Source: Oscillospiraceae bacterium (lineage in GTDB: Bacteria; Bacillota; Clostridia; Oscillospirales; CAG-272). From it: a stretch of DNA of 50,350 nucleotides. Made by a program: the position numbers and the translations under genes. Shown here one piece after another: positions 33,263 through 46,583 of this stretch. A model generated the notes under the pieces. The model made no database searches. It saw only the letters and a program-made list of their open reading frames with translations, and was not told where the DNA came from. The stretch is taken from NCBI GenBank assembly GCA_015063745.1, contig SVTO01000015.1, forward strand, positions 1-50,350, given 5' to 3'. Each line of letters starts with the position of its first letter. Positions within the stretch are counted from its first letter, which is position 1.

Positions 33263-33325
33263 AAAGTATGAATGTACGGTTTTTTGTTTAATTTTTCTAC
33301 AACCGTACAGATACAGGAGTTGTCG

Positions 33326-34033
33326 GTGTACACAGATAACAAAAAAGATCATGCAGTTGTAAAACAAACGGACGGCACAGGTACCGCTGCTGCCGGGAAC
33401 CGGGAATACGATCCGGAAGCAGAGGCAAAGGCCTTGGATCTTGTGGAACGGATTCAGGGGGGCGATGAAGATGCCTTCCGGCTGCTGACACTGCAGTACA
33501 GACAGCTTGTGGATTCCATGGCAAACCGCTTCGCTCCGTCATTGGGACTCTTGGAAACAAGCACCAACGCGGACGGCATCGGTATGGAGGAACTGCGGCA
33601 GGACGGATATGTTGCTTTGTACAAGGCGGCGATGTCCTACGAAGCCGGAACGGACGGAAAAGGCAAAGCAGTCCGGTTTGGTCTGTATGCAAAGATCTGT
33701 ATACGGAACGCCTACATTTCCGAGGTACGGCGATACAAGCGGGCACTGCGGCGTATGGAAAAGGAAAAAGAAACCGCAGGCGGCAGGCAGGGAAGACTGG
33801 AATGGATCCAGAACAATATGCAGGCAGCCGACGGTGCCGGAGAAGACGGTGCGCTGCTGAAGCAGATATGTGCATCGCTTTCCGATTATGAGAAGGCCGT
33901 GTTCATGCAGTATCTCCAGGGCAAACCGCCGAGAGAGATTGCCGTGAGCCTGAACCGATCCGAAAGATCCGTCAGCAATGCCATCTACAGGATCAAAACC
34001 AAAAACAGAGGACTTCTGGACAAGAACCTCTGA
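33326..34033 (+). CDS. RNA polymerase sigma-70-family factor (SigH-like)
   Basis: The GTG at 33326 follows AGGAGTTGTCG and lies 57 bases past the predicted transcript start; an ATG at 33272 would be nearly leaderless. The 235-residue protein has a region 2 (ERIQGGDEDAFRLLTLQYR; LRQDGYVALYKAAMSYE; FGLYAKICIRNAYISEVRRY) and region 4 (LSDYEKAVFMQYLQGKPPRE then a helix-turn-helix with NRSERSVSNAIYRIKTK). This resembles SigH-type factors of sporulating Firmicutes, but an acidic insertion before region 2.2 is unusual. No anti-sigma factor is adjacent. Confidence 0.82.
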   Translation: MYTDNKKDHAVVKQTDGTGTAAAGNREYDPEAEAKALDLVERIQGGDEDAFRLLTLQYRQLVDSMANRFAPSLGLLETSTNADGIGMEELRQDGYVALYKAAMSYEAGTDGKGKAVRFGLYAKICIRNAYISEVRRYKRALRRMEKEKETAGGRQGRLEWIQNNMQAADGAGEDGALLKQICASLSDYEKAVFMQYLQGKPPREIAVSLNRSERSVSNAIYRIKTKNRGLLDKNL

Positions 34034-34088: not shown

Positions 34089-34153
34089 TGCCCGAATAGC
34101 TTAACGGTAGAGCGTTGTTTCCAAAGGTGACGGTGCGAATCCGTCGAGGGCAG
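34089..34153 (+). ncRNA. tRNA-like element lacking a normal anticodon arm
   Basis: The 64-base sequence has TGCCC/GGGCA ends, a D-arm (GCTT...GAGC with AACGGTA loop) and a perfect T-arm (GACGG-TGCGAAT-CCGTC, where TTCGAAT would be normal). Only 15 bases lie between these arms instead of about 22, and they do not form a 5-bp anticodon stem; CCAAA in the middle mimics a tRNA-Trp anticodon loop. It cannot be a standard decoding tRNA. It ends 35 bases before the zinc-ribbon gene, so it may be a leader element of that mRNA or a decayed tRNA. Confidence 0.6.
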
Positions 34154-34509: not shown

Positions 34510-34540
34510 AAAGGTGCGATTCAGATGTCGTGCCTTTTTT
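34510..34540 (+). terminator. Terminator of the zinc-ribbon gene
   Basis: AAAGGTGCGA and TCGTGCCTTT pair with two G-T wobbles, followed by TTTT. Confidence 0.8.
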
Positions 34541-34665: not shown

Positions 34666-34694
34666 TGTACAAAAATGATTAAATGTGGTATAAT
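34666..34694 (+). promoter_or_regulatory. Putative promoter of rlmB
   Basis: TGTACA (34666-34671), 17-base spacer, TATAAT (34689-34694). Confidence 0.65.
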
Positions 34695-34756
34695 AATGAT
34701 GTATACGTATGCCCATTTGGGATTTTTGTATAAGTCCGAAAAAACGGAGATTTCGT

Positions 34757-35572
34757 ATGGAGAAAAAACAGTTTAATAAAAAAGAATACGCAAACTCCGG
34801 CAGGAGAAACGACCGCAGCATCCGCAAAGAAGAAGAATTCGAAGAAGATTACGGTATTGTCGTCGGCAGAAATGCGGTAAGAGAACTGCTGAAATCCGGC
34901 AGACCCGTGGATAAGCTCTATGTAGCCGGCAGAGAAGGCTCGGTACTGGTGCTGATTGCGGAAGCAAAAAAAGCGGGAATTCCCGTTGTGGATGCCGATA
35001 TGCAGAAGCTGGACAAGCTTGCCAGAGGCGAAAACCATCAGGGTGTTGCGGCTCAGACGGCAGCGAAAGAATATTCCACCATTGCGGACATTCTGCAGAT
35101 TGCGGCGGACAGAGGAGAAATGCCTCTGATCGTGGTGTGCGACGGTGTGGAGGATCCCCATAATCTGGGTGCGATCATCCGCTGTGCCGAGTGCTCCGGT
35201 GCCCACGGGGTTGTGATCCCGAGAAGACGTGCCTGCGGACTGACGACGGCTGTATACAAGGCATCGGCCGGTGCAGTGGAGCATATGGCTGTGGCGAGGG
35301 TACAGAATATTGCCAGTGCTGTGGAAGAACTGAAGGAAGCCGGTGTATGGACCTTCGCGGCGGAAGCGGGCGGACAGGATTTCTGGGATGCGGATTTCCA
35401 TATTCCCTGTGCCATCGTGCTGGGCAGTGAAGGCAACGGCGTCAGCAGACTGGTGAAGGAAAGGTGCGACTTCCTGGTATCCATTCCCATGTACGGCAAA
35501 GTAAATTCCCTGAACGTATCCACGGCTGCATCCATTCTGCTGTGTCATGCGGCAAGAAAGCAGCGCGGCTGA
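34757..35572 (+). CDS. rlmB: 23S rRNA (guanosine-2'-O)-methyltransferase RlmB / TrmH-family
   Basis: The ATG at 34757 (MEKKQFNKKEYA) follows ACGGAGATTTCGT; the upstream in-frame start at 34709 lacks a site. The 271-residue SPOUT enzyme has a basic/acidic N-terminal tail, an L30e-like substrate-binding domain (YGIVVGRNAVRELL) and the three SPOUT motifs: DPHNLGAIIRCAE, VLGSEGNGVSRL and SLNVSTAASILLCH, which form the SAM-binding knot. In other Firmicutes it follows cysS-mrnC; here it stands 12 kb away from cysS. Confidence 0.9.
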   Translation: MEKKQFNKKEYANSGRRNDRSIRKEEEFEEDYGIVVGRNAVRELLKSGRPVDKLYVAGREGSVLVLIAEAKKAGIPVVDADMQKLDKLARGENHQGVAAQTAAKEYSTIADILQIAADRGEMPLIVVCDGVEDPHNLGAIIRCAECSGAHGVVIPRRRACGLTTAVYKASAGAVEHMAVARVQNIASAVEELKEAGVWTFAAEAGGQDFWDADFHIPCAIVLGSEGNGVSRLVKERCDFLVSIPMYGKVNSLNVSTAASILLCHAARKQRG

Positions 35573-35692: not shown

Positions 35693-38386
35693 ATGGCTAA
35701 AGAGAACAAGAAAAACAATGAACTGAATCAGGAGACCGAGGAAGCGCTCCGTCATGAATCCATTGACGTGCGTTCATCCGGTGAAGAGGCCTCCGACAGC
35801 GAACTGGACATTCATGCTCTTCTGCGCAAGTATATGCCCGAGTATGATAAGGCGGACGAACCGGAAGAAGAACCGGGTATCGAGATCAAGCTGACGGAAA
35901 CCGATCCCGGAGAAATGGAAGAAGAACCTGCAGATCTGCCGGATACGGATTCCATGATCTCCGCGCTGGATTCCATTTTCGCTCCTGCGGATGAAGCGGT
36001 GGAAGATGCTCTCCCGCCCCTGTCCCTGGAAGATATGCCCCTGGCGGAAGACAGCGAAGAATATACCTTTACCGACGATATTCCCAGCGGTTATGAGCAT
36101 GACAGCGAGCTGGAAGACGAGGAAGGTATTTATGAAGCCGATGACGAGCCGGAAGTACGTGCTCCCAAGGCGAAAAAGCGCTTCTCCCTGTTCTCCCGCG
36201 GCAAGAAGACCCGCGGACAGGAACCGGCCGATTTCGATTATTCCGACAATGCCGCAGAAAATACATACACCGCAGAGGACAGCCTGCATGCGGAAGATGC
36301 CGTTCCTTTTGCTGCTGCCGCTCTGTTCACCGAAAGCCCTGCGGAAACCGCTGAAATACCCGCAGACGTGGAAGGTACCGAAGAAGCCGGCCTGACCATC
36401 GAAGTGCCCGAAGAGGAAACCGTGGAAGAAGACGGTGTAATGCCTGCTCCCGATGATGAATTCGACCCCACGGACATCAATCTGATGATCGCCTTCGGCA
36501 TGGATGAAGAAGAAGGCAAGGGCAAGAAGAAAAACAAGAAATCCGGCGAAGCGGTTCAGGACGAACTGCATCATGCAGCCATGCAGGAAGGCGACCGTCT
36601 GGAAGCCAAGGCCATCGCACATGAAGCCCGCAAGGTAAAGCTGGACCGTCCCGAATTTGTGGACAATTCCCAGGTGCCGAAGATCAAGAAGGAATATAAG
36701 AACAAGATGGTATCCCTGTGGATCCGTCTGGCGCTGGCAGGTGTATTTACCTTCCTGCTGATGATCTTTGAAAACATCGAAGTATTTGCCAAGCTGTTCA
36801 CCGGTACCGCAAAGCAGTTCGGCGGCGCATTCGACCCCGCTGTATATCCCGTTGTATATGCCATGGTAAGCTTACAGCTTATGCTGCTGGCCTGCCTGTG
36901 TGCCTATGAAGAAATCATCGATGGTTTCAAGCACCTGTTCAGAGGTGTACCGAAGCCGGAAAGCATTACGGGTCTGATGATGGTGGCCGGTATTATCTAT
37001 ACCGCTGTAATCGCCCGCATCACCGTACAGTCCGACGAACCGGTCATGTTCAACTTCACCGTGGCTTTTGCAGCGTTCATGACCATCATTGCCGCTATCT
37101 ACAATACCAAGAGAGAAATGATCTGCTTCAATGTGGTATCTTCTTCCAAGGATAAGCATATCGTCTGCCGTATTCCCGATGAACAGTCCCAGTACGAAAC
37201 GGACGCTTTCGCGGAAGACACCGAAGTATGCGACGTTATGAAGATCGAAAAGACCGAATTCATCGACGGCTTCTTCACCAGACTGTGCACGCCCGATTCC
37301 ACCGTAAATGTGTTCGTAAGCTGCATTATGGGTATCATGGCAGCCGCAGCCATTCTGTTCGGTGTATTCGGTGCCGTAGTCGGCAACAGCGCCGTGGATG
37401 TAGCCAAGATTATCTGTGTTGCGCTGATGATGCTGGCACCCATGCCCGTATACCTGTCCTTCAGCTATCCCTTCTACCGTGCCAATAAGGCTGCAAAGGA
37501 ATTCGACAGTGCCATCGTGGGTGAAGCTTCTCTGGAAGAATACTCCAACGCATCCGTCGTAACCTTTGACGACAAGAACATTTTCCCGTCCTACAGCGTA
37601 CGTGTACAGAATCTGCGGATCTTCAACAATGCACGTATCGACAGAGTGCTGTACTACGCATCCAGCGTGTTTGCCCATGCCGGCGGACCTCTGCAGGATG
37701 TATTCGAAGTGGCAACCATGGAAATGGGCCGTTCCGACAACGTAAAAATTTACGATACGGAAGCCGGATTCCTGGCAGCCGAAGTGGACGGCGTGAACAT
37801 CATCTTCGGCAGCGGTGCCGCCCTGACCCGCCGAGGTTTCGTGATCACCAGAGAACAGGCGGAGGACGACGTGGATCTGTCCGAAGAACTGTCCATCATG
37901 TATATGTTCCGTGAAGATAAGCTGGTGTGCAAGATGTATGTTCAGTACGGTATGGACAGCGATATCGAAATGATCCTGAGCCAGTTCCGTACCAACGGCC
38001 TGTACGTCTGCGTACGTACCTTCGACCCCAACATCGACGAGCGCATGATCGCACGTAAGGTGCGTATGAAGAATATGCCCCTGAAGGTGATCCGTTATGC
38101 AAGCATGGAAGAAGTAGGTGCCTATGAGGAAAAGGTGGACAGCGGTCTGGTAACCTGCGGCTCACCCAAATCCCTCCTGCAGGTAATTTCCTACTGCGAT
38201 AAGGTTCTGCATACCAGAAAGACCAATATCGCTCTGAATATCCTGTCCGTAATCATCGGTGCTGCCGTAATGACGCTGCTGATCCTGGCAGATTCCATCG
38301 GCATGATGAGTTCCGTATTCATTATCCTGTACCAGCTGCTGTGGATTGTACCCATGCTGCTGTCGTCCAAGATGTTTGTACGCTGA
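35693..38386 (+). CDS. Pseudo-P-type-ATPase membrane protein with long acidic N-terminal domain
   Basis: The 897-residue protein starts with about 335 hydrophilic, strongly acidic residues (with short basic clusters near 159-175 and 276-283). Eight membrane segments follow at about 344-368, 385-408, 424-444, 452-470, 538-563, 570-590, 845-868 and 872-892, the order seen in P1-type ATPases. The helix with LAPMPVYLSF (about 580-590) sits where the conserved CPx/proline helix should be. It is followed by EASLEEYSNASVVTFDDKNI (611-630), placed like the LEALGRVDVVCFDKTGT region but without DKTGT. A reduced N domain (VDGVNIIFGSGAALTRRG) and a reduced P domain (RTFDPNIDERMIARKV where TGD is expected) follow; no GDGxND hinge is seen. 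It therefore should not hydrolyse ATP by the usual mechanism. The start site has only a weak ribosome-binding site. Confidence 0.7.
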   Translation: MAKENKKNNELNQETEEALRHESIDVRSSGEEASDSELDIHALLRKYMPEYDKADEPEEEPGIEIKLTETDPGEMEEEPADLPDTDSMISALDSIFAPADEAVEDALPPLSLEDMPLAEDSEEYTFTDDIPSGYEHDSELEDEEGIYEADDEPEVRAPKAKKRFSLFSRGKKTRGQEPADFDYSDNAAENTYTAEDSLHAEDAVPFAAAALFTESPAETAEIPADVEGTEEAGLTIEVPEEETVEEDGVMPAPDDEFDPTDINLMIAFGMDEEEGKGKKKNKKSGEAVQDELHHAAMQEGDRLEAKAIAHEARKVKLDRPEFVDNSQVPKIKKEYKNKMVSLWIRLALAGVFTFLLMIFENIEVFAKLFTGTAKQFGGAFDPAVYPVVYAMVSLQLMLLACLCAYEEIIDGFKHLFRGVPKPESITGLMMVAGIIYTAVIARITVQSDEPVMFNFTVAFAAFMTIIAAIYNTKREMICFNVVSSSKDKHIVCRIPDEQSQYETDAFAEDTEVCDVMKIEKTEFIDGFFTRLCTPDSTVNVFVSCIMGIMAAAAILFGVFGAVVGNSAVDVAKIICVALMMLAPMPVYLSFSYPFYRANKAAKEFDSAIVGEASLEEYSNASVVTFDDKNIFPSYSVRVQNLRIFNNARIDRVLYYASSVFAHAGGPLQDVFEVATMEMGRSDNVKIYDTEAGFLAAEVDGVNIIFGSGAALTRRGFVITREQAEDDVDLSEELSIMYMFREDKLVCKMYVQYGMDSDIEMILSQFRTNGLYVCVRTFDPNIDERMIARKVRMKNMPLKVIRYASMEEVGAYEEKVDSGLVTCGSPKSLLQVISYCDKVLHTRKTNIALNILSVIIGAAVMTLLILADSIGMMSSVFIILYQLLWIVPMLLSSKMFVR

Positions 38387-38451: not shown

Positions 38452-38459
38452 TCTGTGTG

Positions 38460-41069
38460 ATGAGAGAAGATATCAAGAGTTTTATTACGGGTGTTGCCAA
38501 ACCGGGACGGTATTCCGGCGGCGAGACCGGCAGTGTGTTCAAGGATCCGGCAAAGGTGAAAATGCGTATCGCTTTCTGCTTTCCGGATACCTATGAGATC
38601 GGTATGTCCAATCTGGGTATGCGCATTCTCTGCGGCTGTCTGAATCAGCTGGACGATGTATGGTGCGAAAGAGTGTACGCGCCCTGGATGGATATGACGG
38701 AAGAGATGGAAAAGCGCGGTATTCCCCTGTTCACCCACGAAAGCGGCGATCCCGTCGGGGAATTCGATATGGTGGCCTTCACCATGCAGTACGAGCTGTG
38801 CTATACCACTATGCTGAAAATGATGAAAATGGCCGGTATTCCCCTGCGCCGTGAAGCCCGCGGTGAGGATGCGCCCATCATTCTGGCCGGCGGTCCCTGC
38901 TCCTACAACGCAGAACCCATGGCGGAATTCGCGGACATTTTCTCCATCGGTGAAGGGGAAGAAGCATTGCCGGAGCTGGCAAAACTGTACATCCGTATGA
39001 AGGAAGACGGCAGCTATACAAAGGAAAAATTCCTGTACGCCGCCGCAACGGAGCTGAAGGGTTTCTATGTTCCTTCCCTGTACAATATTTCCTATAACGA
39101 AGACGGTACCATCGCGGCCATCGAACCCGTGGATGATAAGGTTCCCGCCAAGGTAACCAAGCGTGTGATCGCGGATCTGGACAAATGCTATGTGCCCACC
39201 GACCCCGTGATTCCCTATATCGAAACGGTGCAGGACCGCGTGAATATCGAAGTGTTCCGTGGCTGTATCCGCGGATGCCGGTTCTGTCAGGCGGGATTTG
39301 TTACCCGTCCGGTCAGAGAACGCTCTCCGGAAGTGCTGAACGATATGGCGAAAAAGCTGATCGACAAAACGGGCTATGACGAAATTTCCATGTGTTCCCT
39401 GTCCATCAGTGACTATTCCAAAATTCGCGAGCTGACGGATGATCTGCTGGAGTGGACCGACAAAAAGCGCGTGAGCCTGTCCCTGCCTTCCCTCCGTGCC
39501 GACAGCTTTACCAAGGAACTGATGGACAAGATCTCCACCGTCCGCAGCAGTACCCTGACCTTTGCCCCCGAAGCAGGTTCCCAGCGTCTCCGTGATGTGA
39601 TCAATAAAAATGTAACGGAAGCGGATATTCTCCGTGCAGCCGGTGTGGCCTATGCGGCAGGGAAGAATCAGGTGAAGCTGTACTTTATGAACGGCCTGCC
39701 CTACGAAAATTACGACGACATTGCCGGAATCGCCTCTCTGGCGAAGAACGTGGTGGACGAATACTACCGTATGCCCAACCGCAATAAGGCAAAGCAGCCC
39801 CAGGTCACCCTGAGCGTTGCCTGCTTCATTCCCAAACCCCATACGCCCTTCCAGTGGGAACGTCAGAACACCTTTGCCGAACTGGAAGAAAAGCAGAAAT
39901 TCCTCTCCGAAAAGATCACCGACCGCAAGGTGCGTTATAATTACCACGATGCCAAGGTATCCCATATCGAAGCGGTACTGGCCCGCGGCGACAGACGGCT
40001 TGCCGATGCGCTGGAAACCGCTGTGGAACGTGGGATGTTCCTGGATGCCTGGGAAGAACAGTTTGATTTCGACAAATGGATGGAAGTATTTGCCGACTGC
40101 GGCATTGATCCGTCCTTCTACGCCAACCGCACCATCCCGGATGAGGAAATTCTCCCCTGGGATATGATCGACTGCGGTGTTTCCAAGGAATTTTTGCTGT
40201 CCGAGCGTCATAAAGCGGCCGAAGCGGCTGTTACACCCTCCTGCAAGGAAAAATGTTCCGGCTGCGGCGTGAACAAGCTGGTGGATAAGTCCATGTGCAG
40301 ATGGTGTCCCGGCCATCCCGACAGCAGCGACAGCTCCGGAGACATCGCAGGCGGAAAACCTCTGCCTCCGAAACCGCCCCAGCCTCCGAAGGGAAGTGTA
40401 AAGGCGGAACGGACCGTACGTATGCGTTTCTCCAAATCCGGTCCGGCGCTGTATATCTCCCATCTGGAGCTGACCAAGGTCATGACCCGTGCGGTGGTAC
40501 GTTCCGGTCTGCCGGTATATTATACGGAAGGCTTCAATCCCATTCCCAAACTGGTCTTTGCTACTCCTCTGTCCGTAGGATGCGGCGGGGAAGAGGAGAT
40601 CTGCGATATCCGTCTGATGAAGGATATGCCGGATGCCCAGGTTCTGGCCAGACTGCAGGAAACCATGCCTCTCGGTATTGAGGTGAAGGAAGTCTATACC
40701 GCTGTGGGCAAGCCGGTGAATGTGCAGTATGCGGAAAACGTGATCACCTACGGCGGTTTTACCGTAACGGACGAACAGTGTGCCGCCATTGCGGAAATGT
40801 TCGCCTCTCCCGTTGTGATGATGAAGAAATCCAAGAGCGGCGAGAAGGAAGTGGACATTACCACCTTCATTCGTACTTTTCATGCGGAAAACGCGGACGG
40901 CAAACTGGTGATCACCGCTGTGACCGCCGCCAATCAGGAACACTATCTGAATCCGGAATACATCGCATCGGCCATTGAAAACCGGTTTGCGATTTCCGGT
41001 GATAAGGGCTACCACACCATCTGCCGCAAAAAGCTGTTTGAAGGCGACGGTGTGACACCCTTCCGGTAA
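38460..41069 (+). CDS. Radical SAM protein fused to a DUF2344 domain
   Basis: The ATG at 38460 is used (a GTG codon precedes it). The 869-residue protein combines a B12-binding-like N-terminal part (MSNLGMRILCGCLNQ, GGPCSYNAEPM, GEGEEALPEL), a radical SAM core with FRGCIRGCRFCQAGF (CX3CX2C binding the 4Fe-4S cluster), a cysteine-rich linker (CSGCGVNKLVDKSMCRWC) and a C-terminal DUF2344 domain (MRFSKSGPALYISHLELTKV, YTEGFNPIPKLVFATPLSVG). In many bacteria these are two separate neighbouring genes or one fusion next to rplU-rpmA-obg; they are not present here. The substrate is unknown; a role in translation-related RNA modification is suspected. Proline-rich segment at about residues 638-650 joins the halves. 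Confidence 0.92.
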   Translation: MREDIKSFITGVAKPGRYSGGETGSVFKDPAKVKMRIAFCFPDTYEIGMSNLGMRILCGCLNQLDDVWCERVYAPWMDMTEEMEKRGIPLFTHESGDPVGEFDMVAFTMQYELCYTTMLKMMKMAGIPLRREARGEDAPIILAGGPCSYNAEPMAEFADIFSIGEGEEALPELAKLYIRMKEDGSYTKEKFLYAAATELKGFYVPSLYNISYNEDGTIAAIEPVDDKVPAKVTKRVIADLDKCYVPTDPVIPYIETVQDRVNIEVFRGCIRGCRFCQAGFVTRPVRERSPEVLNDMAKKLIDKTGYDEISMCSLSISDYSKIRELTDDLLEWTDKKRVSLSLPSLRADSFTKELMDKISTVRSSTLTFAPEAGSQRLRDVINKNVTEADILRAAGVAYAAGKNQVKLYFMNGLPYENYDDIAGIASLAKNVVDEYYRMPNRNKAKQPQVTLSVACFIPKPHTPFQWERQNTFAELEEKQKFLSEKITDRKVRYNYHDAKVSHIEAVLARGDRRLADALETAVERGMFLDAWEEQFDFDKWMEVFADCGIDPSFYANRTIPDEEILPWDMIDCGVSKEFLLSERHKAAEAAVTPSCKEKCSGCGVNKLVDKSMCRWCPGHPDSSDSSGDIAGGKPLPPKPPQPPKGSVKAERTVRMRFSKSGPALYISHLELTKVMTRAVVRSGLPVYYTEGFNPIPKLVFATPLSVGCGGEEEICDIRLMKDMPDAQVLARLQETMPLGIEVKEVYTAVGKPVNVQYAENVITYGGFTVTDEQCAAIAEMFASPVVMMKKSKSGEKEVDITTFIRTFHAENADGKLVITAVTAANQEHYLNPEYIASAIENRFAISGDKGYHTICRKKLFEGDGVTPFR

Positions 41070-41071
41070 TT

Positions 41072-41470
41072 TCAGGTAAAACTGTCAAAAGATAATTTTT
41101 CAAGATCGCGGAGCTTTTCCAGTTCCGCGATCAGTTTTTTTCTGGCGGAAAGATACCCGGGAATATCACCTGCCAGATACCGCACCCCCGTTTCTTCCAG
41201 ATACCCTTCGATCCGTTCGGTCCCCGCATTTCCCACAAACAGATTGAGAATCCACCTTGTGTTGCGCCAGATCTTACAGAACGTGTCGTAGGCATGATGG
41301 AAACTGACGAAATTCTTTCCTGATAGGTCTTCTGCCGTCGGAATATTGTCCGGCATCTGTTCCACCGCATGGAGCAGGGAAGCGGTGGTATCGGCGACAA
41401 ACAGGCTTTCCCAGATTACCATACCGGTGACCAGAACCAGAATGGCTATAGCCAGAAGCAGAATTTTCAT
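41072..41470 (-). CDS. DUF4363 family protein
   Basis: The 132-residue protein has an N-terminal helix (ILLLAIAILVLVTGMVIWESL) and an all-helical extracytoplasmic part. It matches DUF4363 proteins found beside DUF421 genes in Clostridia. Its start overlaps the DUF421 stop as ATGA after GGGAGGATAC, indicating translational coupling. Its last codons contain the terminator of the convergent radical-SAM gene. Confidence 0.82.
   Translation of the reverse strand: MKILLLAIAILVLVTGMVIWESLFVADTTASLLHAVEQMPDNIPTAEDLSGKNFVSFHHAYDTFCKIWRNTRWILNLFVGNAGTERIEGYLEETGVRYLAGDIPGYLSARKKLIAELEKLRDLEKLSFDSFT
41104..41141 (+). terminator. Terminator of the radical-SAM gene inside the convergent coding region
   Basis: GATCGCGGA (41104-41112) and TCCGCGATC (41124-41132) form a perfect 9-bp stem followed by AGTTTTTTT. 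It lies within the DUF4363 coding sequence on the opposite strand, only 35 bases past the radical-SAM stop. Confidence 0.85.
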
Positions 41471-42141
41471 GTATCCTCCCGCAGCAGGCAGACGATCCCG
41501 CCCGCATCATCCAGCGTCAGCAGAAATACCTGCCCGATCTCCACCCCGCGCTTGTGCAGCTCCCTGTCCAGCCAGCTGCGGTTTTTCCGGCATCCGTTCA
41601 GTTCCCGTTCGCTGATTTTGCCGTCGATGATCAGAGGATGGGCAATCCCTTTGCCGGGGTGGGACAGCCGCATATCCCCGCAGGTAACGGGAGCGGCGTC
41701 GGGCAGGGGAAAGACGGACAGCTTGCCGTTTTCCTCCAGAATCGCATAATCCACCTCATCCAGAGAACCGAATCCCTTCTGCCGCAGTTCGGAGAGAAGC
41801 TCGTCCAGTTCCATCCGGTTATCGGAAAGGGCTTTACGGGAAAGTTTTCCCTTTTCTACCAGAACGGTAGGTGAGCCGTTGAGCAGCCGTTTCAGGGTAT
41901 TGCAGCGGGTGGATGCGAAGGAAACGATCACTTCAATGGATACAAGCAGCAGAATGGGCAGAAGTGCGTTCATGATGGAAAGCTCTCTGTCGGTGATGGG
42001 ACTGACCGCCAGTTCGGACAACATGAATGTGATGATCAGCTCGCTGACCTGCAAGTCTCCCATCTGTCGTTTCCCCATCAGCCTCATGGTACAGAGCAGA
42101 AACACATAAATAAAAACTGTACGCAGATAAACAGTAACCAT
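41467..42141 (-). CDS. DUF421 (YetF-like) membrane protein
   Basis: The ATG at 42141 (MVTVYLRTVFIYVFLL) follows AAAGGAGGACGGATT; the frame continues upstream to 42264 without a site. The 224-residue protein has three membrane helices, the conserved RLMGKRQMGDLQVSELIITF and GSPTVLVEKGKL, and the C-terminal domain with RMELDELLSELRQKGF and DEVDYAILEENGKLSVF, typical of DUF421/YetF proteins of spore-formers. Function is not established. Confidence 0.9.
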   Translation of the reverse strand: MVTVYLRTVFIYVFLLCTMRLMGKRQMGDLQVSELIITFMLSELAVSPITDRELSIMNALLPILLLVSIEVIVSFASTRCNTLKRLLNGSPTVLVEKGKLSRKALSDNRMELDELLSELRQKGFGSLDEVDYAILEENGKLSVFPLPDAAPVTCGDMRLSHPGKGIAHPLIIDGKISERELNGCRKNRSWLDRELHKRGVEIGQVFLLTLDDAGGIVCLLREDT

Positions 42142-42258
42142 AATCCGTCCTCCTTTACAGATTAGTCTGTACATTTCGTGGAAATGTATGCATACCCAAG
42201 GGGATGCGGACCGTTGAAAGGGTAGGCTTTTTTGATTTCGAAAAAATGGAAAACTGTA

Positions 42259-42287
42259 TTGCAATGTGAAAAAGAATATGCTATAAT
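42259..42287 (+). promoter_or_regulatory. Promoter of the GH35-like gene pair
   Basis: TTGCAA (42259-42264), 17-base spacer, TATAAT (42282-42287). Confidence 0.75.
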
Positions 42288-42350: not shown

Positions 42351-44447
42351 ATGCTCGATATTCAGGCAAAAGAAATATTCGGCGGTGAAGTACAGTATTT
42401 CCGCACAGATCCCGAATACTGGGAACTGATCGTAAAAAGACTGGCAGAAACTGGTTTGCGCACCTTGACTACTTATATTACATGGGAAACACATATGGTA
42501 AAGGAACCGGATGCGGAACATCCCATCGGTTACCTGGATTTTACCGGTGAAACCAATCCCCGTCTGAATCTGATGGGCTTTCTGGAAATTGTTGAAAAGT
42601 ACGGTCTGAACCTGAATTTCCGCTGCGGTCCTTTCTGTTGCAATGAACTGCCCTGCGGTGGATATCCCCGTTTCCTTGTAACAGAAATGCCGGAGATTTT
42701 CGTGCTGAATAACGAAGACAAGTATACCAATGGTTATCGTATTGCCAGCAAGGATACCTTCCAGCCTTCCTATCTCCATCCCGTATATCTGGATCTCTGC
42801 CGTCAGTGGATCAATGAAATGGACAAGATCATCATCCCCCACCTGAAGGTAAACGGCGGATGCATCACCATGATCAATCTGGATAACGAAGTATCCTACA
42901 TCGTACAGGATAGCTTCCTGCAGTCCGACTACAATCCCGTAAACGTGGCACCCGGCGGATTCTACCACCAGTTCCTGAAGGAAACCTACGGTTCTGTGGA
43001 AAACCTCCCCTACCGTACCAAGTATGCGGCATTCGAAGAGATCCCCGCCCCCCGTTCCGTACCGGAAAACATTGACGACGACTACGCTTATTATGCAGAC
43101 TGGATGAAGTTCCATACCTGGGTGATGTGCCGGTATATCGAAGAAATACGCAAGATGCACGAAGCAAACGGCGTGACCTCCGATAAGGTTACTTTCATGA
43201 CCAACTACGACCCGCACCTGCCGGAAGGTGTTCCCACCCGTATGCCCGATTTCGAAAAGGCATCCGGCGGTATCACCGGTTACGACTTCTATCGCAGTCC
43301 TTTCATGACCTATTCCGGTTATCAGTCCATGGCCCGTGTTATGAAGCTGATGACCAATACACTGGCATTCCCCTACAGCTCCGAATTCATGGCCGGTATC
43401 TGGGAAAAGATCCTCAGCTCCCGTATTTCCGACGACTGTATGCGTTTTATGGCCCGCTGTGCCTTTGCCCACGGCTGTAAGGCGATCCAGTGGTTCATGT
43501 TCAGCGACCGTGATTCCTGGAATGACGCACCTCTGTCCTCCCACGGTCACAAGCGTCCCAGCATTGATGTGCTCAGCGAAGTACCGGTGCTCCTCTTCGA
43601 TAAGATCAAAAACTGGGATGCCATGAAGCCCATAAATGATATCGGTATCATCTACGACCTGACCACCCACATCCATACCTCCATCGGCGATCCGATGCCC
43701 TGTGCGGACGGAAAGCTGCATATCGGCAGTCCGAAGATCGACGGCGTGGAAGCGGGACTCGGTTCCAAGGAATACATCAGTATGTTCCGTCTGGCCGAAC
43801 AGAACGGCGTACAGGCCGCGGCGATCGATATTCACTACAGCGACGCATCCCTGTATGACTATCCTCTGGTAGTATATCCCGGCTCTCCCGTCATCGCTGC
43901 AAAAACGGAAGAACAGCTGCGCAAGTACGTGGAAAACGGTGGTATACTGGCGATCACCGGTATTCTGCCCACCCGTTATGAAACCGGTGAAAAGTGCTGT
44001 TTCTTCGGCGGCGTACAGGCCGGTGAGCAGACCTTCGGCAAGGGCAGAGTGATCTTTGTGGACAAATACATCGGTCAGGGCGACTCGGAAGAAGATACTC
44101 TTGAAGACATTGCCCTGTTCGGTGAACTGCTGCAGAAGGCCAATGTGGTTCCGGCAGTGCATATGACCGCCAAGCCCTGTGAATGGAAAACGCTGACCGG
44201 CGCCGGCATGACGGACTTCAGACAGGAACGTATGCTGGGCAGCGCGGTTCTGCAGCAGGCCAACGGCGAAACGCTTCTGTTTGTGCTGAACCATTATCCG
44301 GAAGCCCATAAATTTACATTGAAATTCTCCATTCCCTGCACCAGGTTAGTGTGCCTGACGGAAGAAGAGGATGCTGTTGTGGAAAACGGCGTATGCACTC
44401 TCGATATCGACCGTAAGGATTGCCAGATCTACCGTGTGGAAGCATAA
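42351..44447 (+). CDS. GH35-like beta-galactosidase-type glycosidase, copy A
   Basis: The 698-residue protein begins AKEIFGGEVQYFR and continues with FGGEVQ/YITWE/FRCGPFCC patterns of the GH35 TIM barrel. The likely acid/base Glu is in MINLDNEVSYI and the nucleophile Glu in PYSSEFMAG, both typical of clan GH-A. A beta-rich C-terminal region follows. No signal peptide, so it works on imported sugars in the cytoplasm. RBS AGGAGGAGAATCT. The next gene is a paralogue 60 bases downstream with a 103-residue identical block (residues 159-261 here). Substrate specificity cannot be read; GH35-like proteins of this branch are poorly studied. Confidence 0.82.
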   Translation: MLDIQAKEIFGGEVQYFRTDPEYWELIVKRLAETGLRTLTTYITWETHMVKEPDAEHPIGYLDFTGETNPRLNLMGFLEIVEKYGLNLNFRCGPFCCNELPCGGYPRFLVTEMPEIFVLNNEDKYTNGYRIASKDTFQPSYLHPVYLDLCRQWINEMDKIIIPHLKVNGGCITMINLDNEVSYIVQDSFLQSDYNPVNVAPGGFYHQFLKETYGSVENLPYRTKYAAFEEIPAPRSVPENIDDDYAYYADWMKFHTWVMCRYIEEIRKMHEANGVTSDKVTFMTNYDPHLPEGVPTRMPDFEKASGGITGYDFYRSPFMTYSGYQSMARVMKLMTNTLAFPYSSEFMAGIWEKILSSRISDDCMRFMARCAFAHGCKAIQWFMFSDRDSWNDAPLSSHGHKRPSIDVLSEVPVLLFDKIKNWDAMKPINDIGIIYDLTTHIHTSIGDPMPCADGKLHIGSPKIDGVEAGLGSKEYISMFRLAEQNGVQAAAIDIHYSDASLYDYPLVVYPGSPVIAAKTEEQLRKYVENGGILAITGILPTRYETGEKCCFFGGVQAGEQTFGKGRVIFVDKYIGQGDSEEDTLEDIALFGELLQKANVVPAVHMTAKPCEWKTLTGAGMTDFRQERMLGSAVLQQANGETLLFVLNHYPEAHKFTLKFSIPCTRLVCLTEEEDAVVENGVCTLDIDRKDCQIYRVEA

Positions 44448-44507
44448 TAATCGAACAGGAAAAATTCCTGCTGACAATACAAATTCTCTTACTCAGGAGG
44501 CAAAAAC

Positions 44508-46583
44508 ATGATGAACATTCAGGCGAAAGAAATATTCGGCGGTGAAATTCAGTACTGGCGTGTGGACCCCAAGTACTGGGAAAACATTATCCGCGCCTTT
44601 GCGGAAGCCGGTATGCGTACCGTGACATCCTATGTGCCGTGGGAATGTCATATCGTCGGTGCACCGGATGAAGAACATCCCGCAGGTGTGCTGGATTTCA
44701 CAGGGGAAGTGGACCCCAAGCTGAATCTGATGCATTTTCTGGAACTGGTGGAAAAGTACGATCTGAATCTGAACTTCCGCTGCGGTCCGTTCTGCTGTGC
44801 GGAGCTGCTGTACGGCGGTCATCCCAAGTTCCTCGTAACCGAAATCGACGAGATCAATTCTCTGAATTTTGAAGACAAGCCTACCAGAGGGTACTTCGGT
44901 TCCAGCAACCAGCCCTCCTACCTCCATCCCCTTTATCTGGATTGGGTCAGAAAATGGTATGACGAAATGGCCAAGATCATCATCCCCCACCTGAAGGTGA
45001 ACGGCGGATGCATTACCATGATCAATCTGGATAACGAAGTATCCTACATCGTACAGGACAGCTTCCTGCAGTCCGACTACAACCCCGTAAACGTAGCACC
45101 CGGCGGATTCTATCATCAGTTCCTGAAGGAAACCTACGGTTCTGTGGAAAACCTTCCTTACCGTACCAAGTATGCGGCGTTCGAAGAAATTCCCGCGCCC
45201 CGTTCCGTACCGGAAAACATTGACGACGACTACGCTTACTACGCAGACTGGATGAAGTTCCATACCTGGGTTATGTGCCGCTTTATCGAAGAACTGCGCA
45301 AGATGCACGAAGCCAACGGTATCACGGCCGATAAGGTTATTTTCATGACCAACTACGACCCGCATCTGCCGGAAGGCGTGCCCACCCGTATGCCCGATTT
45401 CGAAGAAGCATCCGGCGGTATCACCGGTTACGACTTCTACCGCGGTACCTTCATGAGCTATTCCGGATACCAGTCCCTGGCCCGCGTTATGAAGCTGATG
45501 ACGGATACCCTGAAGTTCCCCTACAGCTCCGAATTTATGGCCGGTACCTGGGAAAAGGTGCTGAGTTCCCGTGTATCCGACGATCATATGCGTTTCATGG
45601 CCCGCTGTGCCTTTGCTCACGGCTGTAAGGCGATCCAGTGGTATATGATACACGACAGATATACCTGGGGTGACTCCCCCGTATCCCTTCACGGACACAA
45701 GCGTCCCAGCATTGACGTGCTCCGCGAAACCCCGAAGATCCTCTTCGATAAGATAAAGAACTGGGATGCCATGAAGCCGGTGAACGATATCGGTATTATC
45801 TACGACCTGACTGCCCACATCCATACCTCCCTCGGTGATCCGATGCCCTGCAACGATGGCAATCTGTATATCGGTAATCCGAAGATCGACGGCGTGAACG
45901 CAGGTATCGCTTCCAAGGAATATATCGGTCTGTTCCGTATAGCCGAACAGAACGGCGTACAGGCTGCGGCTATCGATATTCATTACAGCGACGCATCCCT
46001 GTACAAGTACCCTCTCATAGTATACCCAGGTTCTCCCGTCATCGCTGCGAAAACGGAAGAACAGCTGCGTAAATACGTGGAAAACGGCGGTGTACTGGCC
46101 ATTACCGGTATCCTGCCCACCCGTTATGAAACCGGTGAAAAGTGCTGCCTGTTCGGCGGTGTACAGGCCGGTGAACAGACCCTCGGCAAGGGCAAAGTGA
46201 TCTTTGTGGACGCTTATCTGGGCCAGGGCGAGTCTGAAAAGGACAGCATGGAAGATATCAGCCGCTTCGGTGAAGTGCTGAATATGGCCAAAGTGGTGCC
46301 TGCAGTACGTATCTCCAGCGATGCATTTGTACTGGCCGAATGGAACAGAGCGCCCTCCGTACAGCCCCGTATGCTGGGCAGCGCGGTTCTGCAGCAGGCC
46401 AATGGCGAAACGATTCTGTTCGTGATGAACCACAATCCCGATGCCCATGAATTCAAGCTGGAATTCTCCATTCCCTGCACCAAGCTGGTGTGCCTGACGG
46501 AAGAACAGGATGCAGTTGTGGAAAACGGCGTATGCATCCTCGACATCGACCGCAAGAACTGCCAGATCTACCGCGTGGAATAA
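44508..46583 (+). CDS. GH35-like beta-galactosidase-type glycosidase, copy B
   Basis: The 691-residue paralogue of the preceding gene keeps both catalytic Glu regions (MINLDNEVSYI; PYSSEFMAGTWE). Differences cluster at the N-terminus (substrate loop ELLYGGHPKF versus ELPCGGYPRF and a shorter segment near residues 115-130) and near 420-430 (WYMIHDRYTWGD versus WFMFSDRDSWND), suggesting different sugar preference. Residues 156-258 are identical to copy A. RBS CAGGAGGCAAAAAC; a second ATG 3 bases later is an equal alternative start. It shares the promoter at 42259 and ends in a strong terminator. Confidence 0.82.
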   Translation: MMNIQAKEIFGGEIQYWRVDPKYWENIIRAFAEAGMRTVTSYVPWECHIVGAPDEEHPAGVLDFTGEVDPKLNLMHFLELVEKYDLNLNFRCGPFCCAELLYGGHPKFLVTEIDEINSLNFEDKPTRGYFGSSNQPSYLHPLYLDWVRKWYDEMAKIIIPHLKVNGGCITMINLDNEVSYIVQDSFLQSDYNPVNVAPGGFYHQFLKETYGSVENLPYRTKYAAFEEIPAPRSVPENIDDDYAYYADWMKFHTWVMCRFIEELRKMHEANGITADKVIFMTNYDPHLPEGVPTRMPDFEEASGGITGYDFYRGTFMSYSGYQSLARVMKLMTDTLKFPYSSEFMAGTWEKVLSSRVSDDHMRFMARCAFAHGCKAIQWYMIHDRYTWGDSPVSLHGHKRPSIDVLRETPKILFDKIKNWDAMKPVNDIGIIYDLTAHIHTSLGDPMPCNDGNLYIGNPKIDGVNAGIASKEYIGLFRIAEQNGVQAAAIDIHYSDASLYKYPLIVYPGSPVIAAKTEEQLRKYVENGGVLAITGILPTRYETGEKCCLFGGVQAGEQTLGKGKVIFVDAYLGQGESEKDSMEDISRFGEVLNMAKVVPAVRISSDAFVLAEWNRAPSVQPRMLGSAVLQQANGETILFVMNHNPDAHEFKLEFSIPCTKLVCLTEEQDAVVENGVCILDIDRKNCQIYRVE

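Follow-up and report, generated by a model that had tools for sequence, protein, structure and literature searches.

This report concerns a protein-coding gene on contig SVTO01000015.1 of an Oscillospiraceae bacterium (assembly GCA_015063745.1), of which positions 1 to 50,350 of the forward strand were analysed; this whole stretch of 50,350 nucleotides (nt) is called the window below. The gene is an open reading frame (ORF) on the + strand at 35693-38386 (stop codon counted), which starts with ATG and encodes 897 amino acids (aa). On the basis of the ORF and profile alignments, its product is a putative membrane protein derived from P1B ATPases that looks catalytically dead, and it and its relatives are referred to as the pseudo-pump family. 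The original prediction, made from the letters of the window, had described a degenerate P-type ATPase fused to a long acidic domain.

Alignment of relatives, composition and the ratio of nonsynonymous to synonymous divergence (dN/dS) set apart an acidic, less conserved N-terminal part (residues 1-317, 35693-36643), in which comparison of relatives brought out two motifs, LLRKYMPEY (residues 43-51, 35819-35845) and PTDINLMIAFGMDEE (residues 259-273, 36467-36511), the second lying N-terminal of the first helix. By hydropathy, helices MA, MB, M1 and M2 occupy residues 344-467 (36722-37093), and helices M5 and M6 lie at 38231-38362; M3 and M4, placed by alignment and hydropathy, lie at 37322-37456, with APM in place of CPC in M4. 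Profile alignment and loop length point to a remnant of the A domain without TGES (residues 470-535, 37100-37297). Profile alignments place DDKNIFP (residues 626-632, 37568-37588) at the position of DKTGTLT, GGPL (residues 664-667, 37682-37693) at that of the nucleotide-binding motif SEHPL, and TFDPN (residues 776-780, 38018-38032) at that of TGDN; the end of the P domain (38033-38230) is truncated, with about 37 residues bearing GDGxND deleted relative to P1B ATPases. Upstream on the same strand lies rlmB (34709-35572, perhaps starting at an in-frame ATG at 34757), whose NCBIfam match (TIGR00186) assigns it to the 23S rRNA Gm2251 2'-O-methyltransferase, a SpoU methylase. Downstream, also on the + strand, lies a radical-SAM protein gene (38457-41069, NCBIfam TIGR03960/TIGR03936). 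The spacing is 120 nt from rlmB to the pseudo-pump gene and 70 nt from there to the radical-SAM gene.

Descent of the family from P1B ATPases

Taken singly, the window protein is uninformative: it gave no Pfam match, no match to Protein Data Bank (PDB) sequences by phmmer, and a weak NCBIfam match to TIGR01525 (P1B ATPases) at an expect value (E) of 5.5e-5 over residues 540-791. No metal-binding domain is recognised in it, since no Pfam domain was found. The family profiles do match, and the P1B descent is taken as settled on that account. Aligned with hhalign, 84 family members and 32 P1B rows of the same order gave a probability of 100 across 521 columns, the E-value of this comparison referring to one pair and not to a database search. 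A profile of 52 members compared with PDB sequences had LpCopA (3rfu) as its best match (E 8.7e-31), and 37 of these 52 members matched TIGR01525 at E ≤ 0.01. In profile comparison the family fitted a CopA-like set (6.2e-35) better than a Zn/Cd-like set (6.5e-21) and far better than P2 pumps (1.2e-4); these sets comprised 23 CopA-like, 9 shorter Zn/Cd-like and 2 P2 sequences and were split by length alone, and the tree places one of the 23 CopA-like rows with the Zn set. This tree, built from 24 family members, the 32 P1B rows and the 2 P2 pumps, has the family as one clade with a branch support of 100/100; it fixes neither the root nor the sister group, and the program warned of long branches.

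Family-average hydropathy has eight hydrophobic segments in the P1B order MA, MB, M1, M2, (A), M3, M4, (P-N-P), M5, M6, with four helices preceding the A domain, two between A and P, and two following P, which bears out the P1-type helix order first proposed for this ORF. The best hydrophobic 19-mers are at residues 344-362, 387-405, 425-443, 449-467, 544-562, 570-588, 847-865 and 872-890. The suggested similarity of the core to P1B ATPases is strong by sequence profile, and as judged from these comparisons the window protein is descended from P1B (CopA-like) ATPases.

Lost motifs and conserved residues

Motifs were counted in 164 homologues, including three short sequences (L059, L073 and L234), and in a P1B control of 32 rows, two of them identical. 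The control rows were chosen by DKTGT, so their score of 32/32 for this motif is by construction; all 32 P1B control loci inspected yielded a DKTGT ORF. None of the 164 homologues has an intact DKTGT at its site, and the sole match to D[KR]TGT among them sits in the tail of L016. GDGxND, also reported missing by the original prediction, occurs in 0/164 homologues versus 32/32 control rows, the segment that bears it being deleted in the window protein. CPC occurs in 0/164 (CP[CHS] in 32/32 control rows), with Cys at the two positions flanking the conserved M4 proline in 1/164 and 2/164; elsewhere in the sequence, CP[CHST] was found in 5 and [CST]PC in 3 of the 164. The nucleotide-binding motif [ST]EHP is present in 0/164 homologues versus 20/32 control rows, and His at this site in 0/164.

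The loop between M2 and M3, which is the A domain in pumps, has 66 aa in the window protein (family median 65, range 52-82) and about 120 aa in the P1B template, as read by eye from the alignment. TGE[STAG] occurs anywhere in the sequence in 9/164 homologues versus 30/32 control rows, and the short A domain of the window protein has no TGES, in agreement with the description of its TGE region as unrecognisable. Three distant members (L090, L223 and L240) have TGE[AGT] within the shortened loop, which may be chance or a relic.

Two of the predicted losses stood in part. The string DDKNIF is indeed found at residues 626-631 where DKTGT would be, but D626 still lies on the position of the catalytic Asp, with D627 on that of the Lys, in two profile alignments. 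Asp is present at the D626 position in 63/164 homologues, at the D627 position in 129/164, and at neither in 10/164. TGD is gone from its own site in 164 of 164 homologues (the string occurs anywhere in 29/164), but its Asp survives: TFD at residues 776-778 aligns with TGD, and T776 is kept in 108/164 and D778 in 163/164.

Other residues are conserved strongly (G706 in 163/164, Y752 and W884 in 155/164 each, G610 in 149/164, N780 in 147/164) or somewhat less so (F631 in 142/164, P632 in 139/159, G693 in 137/164). The M4 proline, P583, is found in 142/164 and P593, just past M4, in 134/164. Residue 629 is Asp or Glu in 124/164 and Asn in 24 members, the window protein among them. The phosphorylation site and TxD are 149 residues apart, versus 151.5 in P1B ATPases; with the spacing nearly unchanged, the two domains P and N otherwise have their full size. 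The old active-site region is among the best conserved parts of the protein, with a different residue set, from which we infer a new role of the site and not drift.

Compared with a working pump, the family lacks the A-domain phosphatase motif, DKTGT, TGD, GDGxND, CPx and SEHP. Compared with a HAD phosphatase, it lacks the motif IV region, which is the GDGxND segment in pumps. The combination found, a loss of catalytic residues shared across the clade together with purifying selection, is that of a pseudoenzyme. The protein very probably does not pump, and ATP hydrolysis is predicted to be absent.

Distribution, selection, tail and neighbours

A profile search at E 1e-45 gave one match each in 227 of 245 genomes of the order, which is probably Oscillospirales in the terms of the genome taxonomy database GTDB; among good-quality genomes, 179/184 had a match. 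The profile held the window and 46 rows from genomes of this 245-genome sample, so that the matches in those genomes are by construction; a single-sequence search found matches in 225/245. The records L002-L023 may share species with other sampled genomes. In a sample of the class (n = 291), the 12 genomes of the order scored 317-706 bits across nearly the whole profile, and the 279 genomes outside the order gave no comparable match (per-genome best 142.5 bits, E 6.3e-42); among the matches listed, those outside the order are confined to roughly positions 226-514 of the profile, which is what true P1B pumps would be expected to give. In a sample of the phylum, 2/199 genomes matched at E 1e-45, both within the order; the phylum and class samples overlap in some genomes. 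A wider spread beyond the order was looked for in these two samples and not seen. An intact sister at the same locus was also sought, and none is among the 164 sequences collected at E 1e-45; true P1B pumps do not reach this threshold, so an intact pump elsewhere would escape the set.

Among the genomes that gave no match, 13 are of poorer quality and five of good quality, and a check for rlmB took in these five. In three of them no rlmB was found at E 1e-15, in one the only match was a distant SpoU paralogue, and in the fifth rlmB lies about 420 nt from an apparent contig end; for these reasons rlmB never stands in full context without the gene in these five. Genome incompleteness alone could explain the absences (2.7%).

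Purifying selection on the core is supported by sequence comparison. Comparison of the window with its nearest relative, L002, gave dN 0.044 and dS 0.741 for the core (dN/dS about 0.06), close to rlmB at dN 0.052 and dS 0.760, and the N-terminal part has dN 0.227 and dS 1.17 (dN/dS about 0.19). In one genome (G022, L073:4125-6557) the family gene is in two pieces with an in-frame TGA, which may be recoding, a sequencing error or a pseudogene. A second in-frame TGA, in the gene of G077, was marked by the profile search alone and was dismissed, the ORF in L039 being open.

The first 335 residues of the window protein are very acidic, as had been noted (29% D+E, 10% K+R). The claimed fusion to a long acidic domain is a variable trait of the family: in N-terminal statistics covering 161 of the 164 sequences, the tail preceding the core has a median of 278 aa (range 47-915), is net negative in 146/161 members and neutral or basic in 15/161, and has at least 20% D+E in 135/161. 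The acidic tail is a common but not a defining trait. A loose LLRKYMPEY pattern was matched in 18/21 of the loci L002-L022 and rarely in remoter members, and a search of the protein's own genome (82% complete) with this motif region returned only the protein itself. The PTDINLMIAFGMDEE motif was found in near relatives and in some distant ones. A pairing of the acidic tail with a basic RlmB tail was considered and is not supported, the median net charge of the RlmB N-terminal extensions being 0.

The constant neighbour is rlmB. In all 160 loci that could be evaluated it is the gene immediately upstream, on the same strand. The 172 loci with the gene, minus nine (eight second copies of a genome and L001, which is the window), left 163, of which L178, L234 and L238 run off an edge and are not evaluable. 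The link was made by script in 159 loci and by eye in L193, whose rlmB ORF overlap exceeds the set limit; L073 was counted with its gene in two pieces. In a spacing set of 160 loci, with the window included and L073 excluded, the first in-frame start follows the rlmB stop at a median distance of 22 nt and at most 206 nt, and the two genes overlap in 22/160. The other neighbours vary. The commonest family downstream is EF-G (9 of 60 ORFs scanned), and no family was found in more than 2 of the 58 ORFs scanned upstream; these scans took in 60/100 downstream and 58/104 upstream ORFs, the excluded ones being mainly short or doubtful and hand-chosen. The setting between an rRNA methylase and a radical-SAM enzyme is correct as to positions, but the radical-SAM enzyme was rejected as a meaningful neighbour, as it is found mainly in near relatives (several loci had short flanks).

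A promoter-like site precedes rlmB (34666-34694, + strand), and a terminator-like hairpin with a T-run lies upstream of it (34510-34537, + strand). Both are consensus matches only, and promoter-like sites numbered 2 versus 4.3 in shuffles, that is, fewer than in shuffled sequence. The consensus scan of the locus found no + strand terminator-like site between rlmB and the pseudo-pump gene. Further upstream, a sigma-70-family protein (33272-34033) precedes rlmB in this clade, scoring above the TIGR02937 cut-off and far below the SigH cut-offs. The sole Rfam match at the locus is a weak tRNA match (34090-34152, 31.3 bits, barely above the cut-off) between the sigma-like and zinc-finger genes, where ARAGORN calls none. 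Beyond the radical-SAM gene, 41072-42264 on the - strand encodes a YetF/DUF421 membrane protein and a small protein whose DUF4363 match is sub-threshold; near relatives keep this pair beside the radical-SAM gene, in one orientation or the other. The adjacent 698- and 691-aa proteins of 42351-46583 both match NF041127 (exo-beta-D-glucosaminidase) well below the cut-off, and the first of them, the 698-aa protein, also matches Pfam GH35.

Function, rival explanations and known systems

The broken-looking form is kept order-wide beside rlmB, and the protein very probably does another job on that account. That this job is that of a non-pumping membrane sensor or scaffold appears probable on balance, and the sensor, scaffold or regulator of the original prediction is a plausible class of function. 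In the proposed history, a P1B (CopA-like) ATPase would have come to adjoin rlmB, and the ancestor would have lost the A-domain phosphatase loop, the GDGxND segment, DKTGT, the nucleotide-binding His and the CPC cysteines while the gene was kept, giving an old, single-copy, order-wide pseudo-pump family. The eight-helix body would anchor the protein in the membrane, and the retained P-N module would act as a docking platform, fixed or ligand-responsive, with the residue set D-x-[DEN]-hydrophobic-[FY]-P and T-x-D-P-N being new at the old active site. Partners would be recruited by the long and usually acidic tail, which would be cytosolic under a P1B topology. Adjacency to rlmB might then point to a task in ribosome maturation or translation at the membrane; such a link to ribosome work is a guess, possible but more readily doubted than believed. 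The proposal in its full form, in which the sensor or scaffold links rlmB to the membrane, the old phosphorylation site has become a ligand or partner site and the whole belongs to the core biology of the order, is tentative and rather doubtful.

Several observations weigh against this proposal. Pfam E1-E2_ATPase was matched by just 1 of 52 family members (E 0.008), and the P-type fold of the window protein is deduced from sequence profiles. Ancestral residues persist at D778, G706 and G693, and given these, some ligand or nucleotide binding may remain. Core comparisons with L003 (0.174/1.627, dN/dS about 0.11) and L005 (0.191/1.206, dN/dS about 0.16) give higher, less favourable ratios, with dS above 1 and near saturation. 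The charges of the tail and of the RlmB extension show no clear complementarity (r = -0.34, n = 139, kinship ignored). No fusion of the protein to RlmB was seen among the family loci, and conserved adjacency can reflect shared transcription alone. The last two points favour a rival that overlaps the proposal and differs from it on the rlmB link only: the pseudo-pump would be real, the adjacency would amount to a shared promoter, and the job would be non-ribosomal, for example cell-envelope or stress sensing. Conserved operons can persist for reasons of expression, and this rival is quite possible, although rlmB stays in every evaluable locus while the other neighbours scanned vary.

The remaining alternatives give the protein a different kind of activity or none. 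It might be an ATP-independent transporter, with the P1B membrane body as a passive channel or facilitator and the P-N module as a gate; the retained helix order and the prolines P583 and P593 would suit this, but CPC and its cysteines are lost, and across residues 580-594 (the M4 region only) no column has a charged residue in more than 4/164 or Cys in more than 18/164, so we hold it unlikely. Dead paralogues often regulate active ones, and the protein could be the regulatory half that pairs with an intact P1B pump present in its own cell and tunes it. A P1B pump scoring above the family cut-off was also present in 25 of 25 genomes examined; the locus, however, goes with rlmB and not with a pump gene, E1-E2_ATPase being matched by 2 of the 58 ORFs scanned upstream, and a regulatory half is judged distinctly unlikely. 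HAD enzymes have their own motifs I and II, which D627-x-D/E629 and T776 with D778 resemble, and the frequencies of these residues given above would fit a re-purposed HAD-type phosphohydrolase or phosphotransferase. Such an enzyme is very improbable: the motif IV region is deleted, D627 is missing in 35/164, 24 members, with the window protein among them, have Asn at residue 629, and two alignments set D626, not D627, at the nucleophile. Decay of the gene would account for the missing catalytic motifs and for the in-frame TGA in G022, but near-whole-profile matches in most of the 227 genomes, a core dN/dS of about 0.06 to 0.16 and conservation of single positions in 163/164 stand against it. 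It has next to no probability and was rejected for the family on its retention in 227 genomes and purifying selection. With 0/164 for DKTGT and the strong P1B profile similarity, the evidence favours the predicted dead pump retained as such.

The pseudo-pump resembles the P1B copper ATPases (CopA; LpCopA, PDB 3rfu) in its MA-MB-M1-M6 eight-helix order, its M4 and post-M4 prolines and the size of its P and N domains, and it shares with them the GN-motif glycine and the TGD aspartate. Unlike CopA, it is without CPC, TGES, DKTGT, the SEHP His and the GDGxND segment, has a shortened A domain and usually an acidic tail, and is linked to rlmB. Dead kinases and dead proteases are well known. Among open-licence PubMed Central papers, no description was found of an order-wide bacterial family of dead P-type ATPases. 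In the passages drawn on here, the P4-ATPase-like domain of PfGC-beta, an apicomplexan guanylate cyclase, is called degenerated (PMC6592433), and this signalling protein likewise keeps a P-type ATPase frame after the loss of signature residues; unlike the pseudo-pump, PfGC-beta is eukaryotic, P4-like and fused to a cyclase, and no such enzyme domain is recognised in the window protein. CtpH and CtpI are unassigned prokaryotic P-type ATPases for which the review, in the part cited, leaves open whether they are functional pumps (PMC10654040). They are like the pseudo-pump in being bacterial P-type ATPases without an assigned function and, by description only, unlike a family in which all 164 sequences are without DKTGT and GDGxND.

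If the proposal is true, the family would serve as a natural experiment on the capabilities of a pump frame that has no catalytic cycle. The gene, missed by Pfam in the case of the window protein, would be a probable core gene of an order often met in samples from gut and rumen, and rlmB, with which it is constantly paired, would offer a concrete partner to test.

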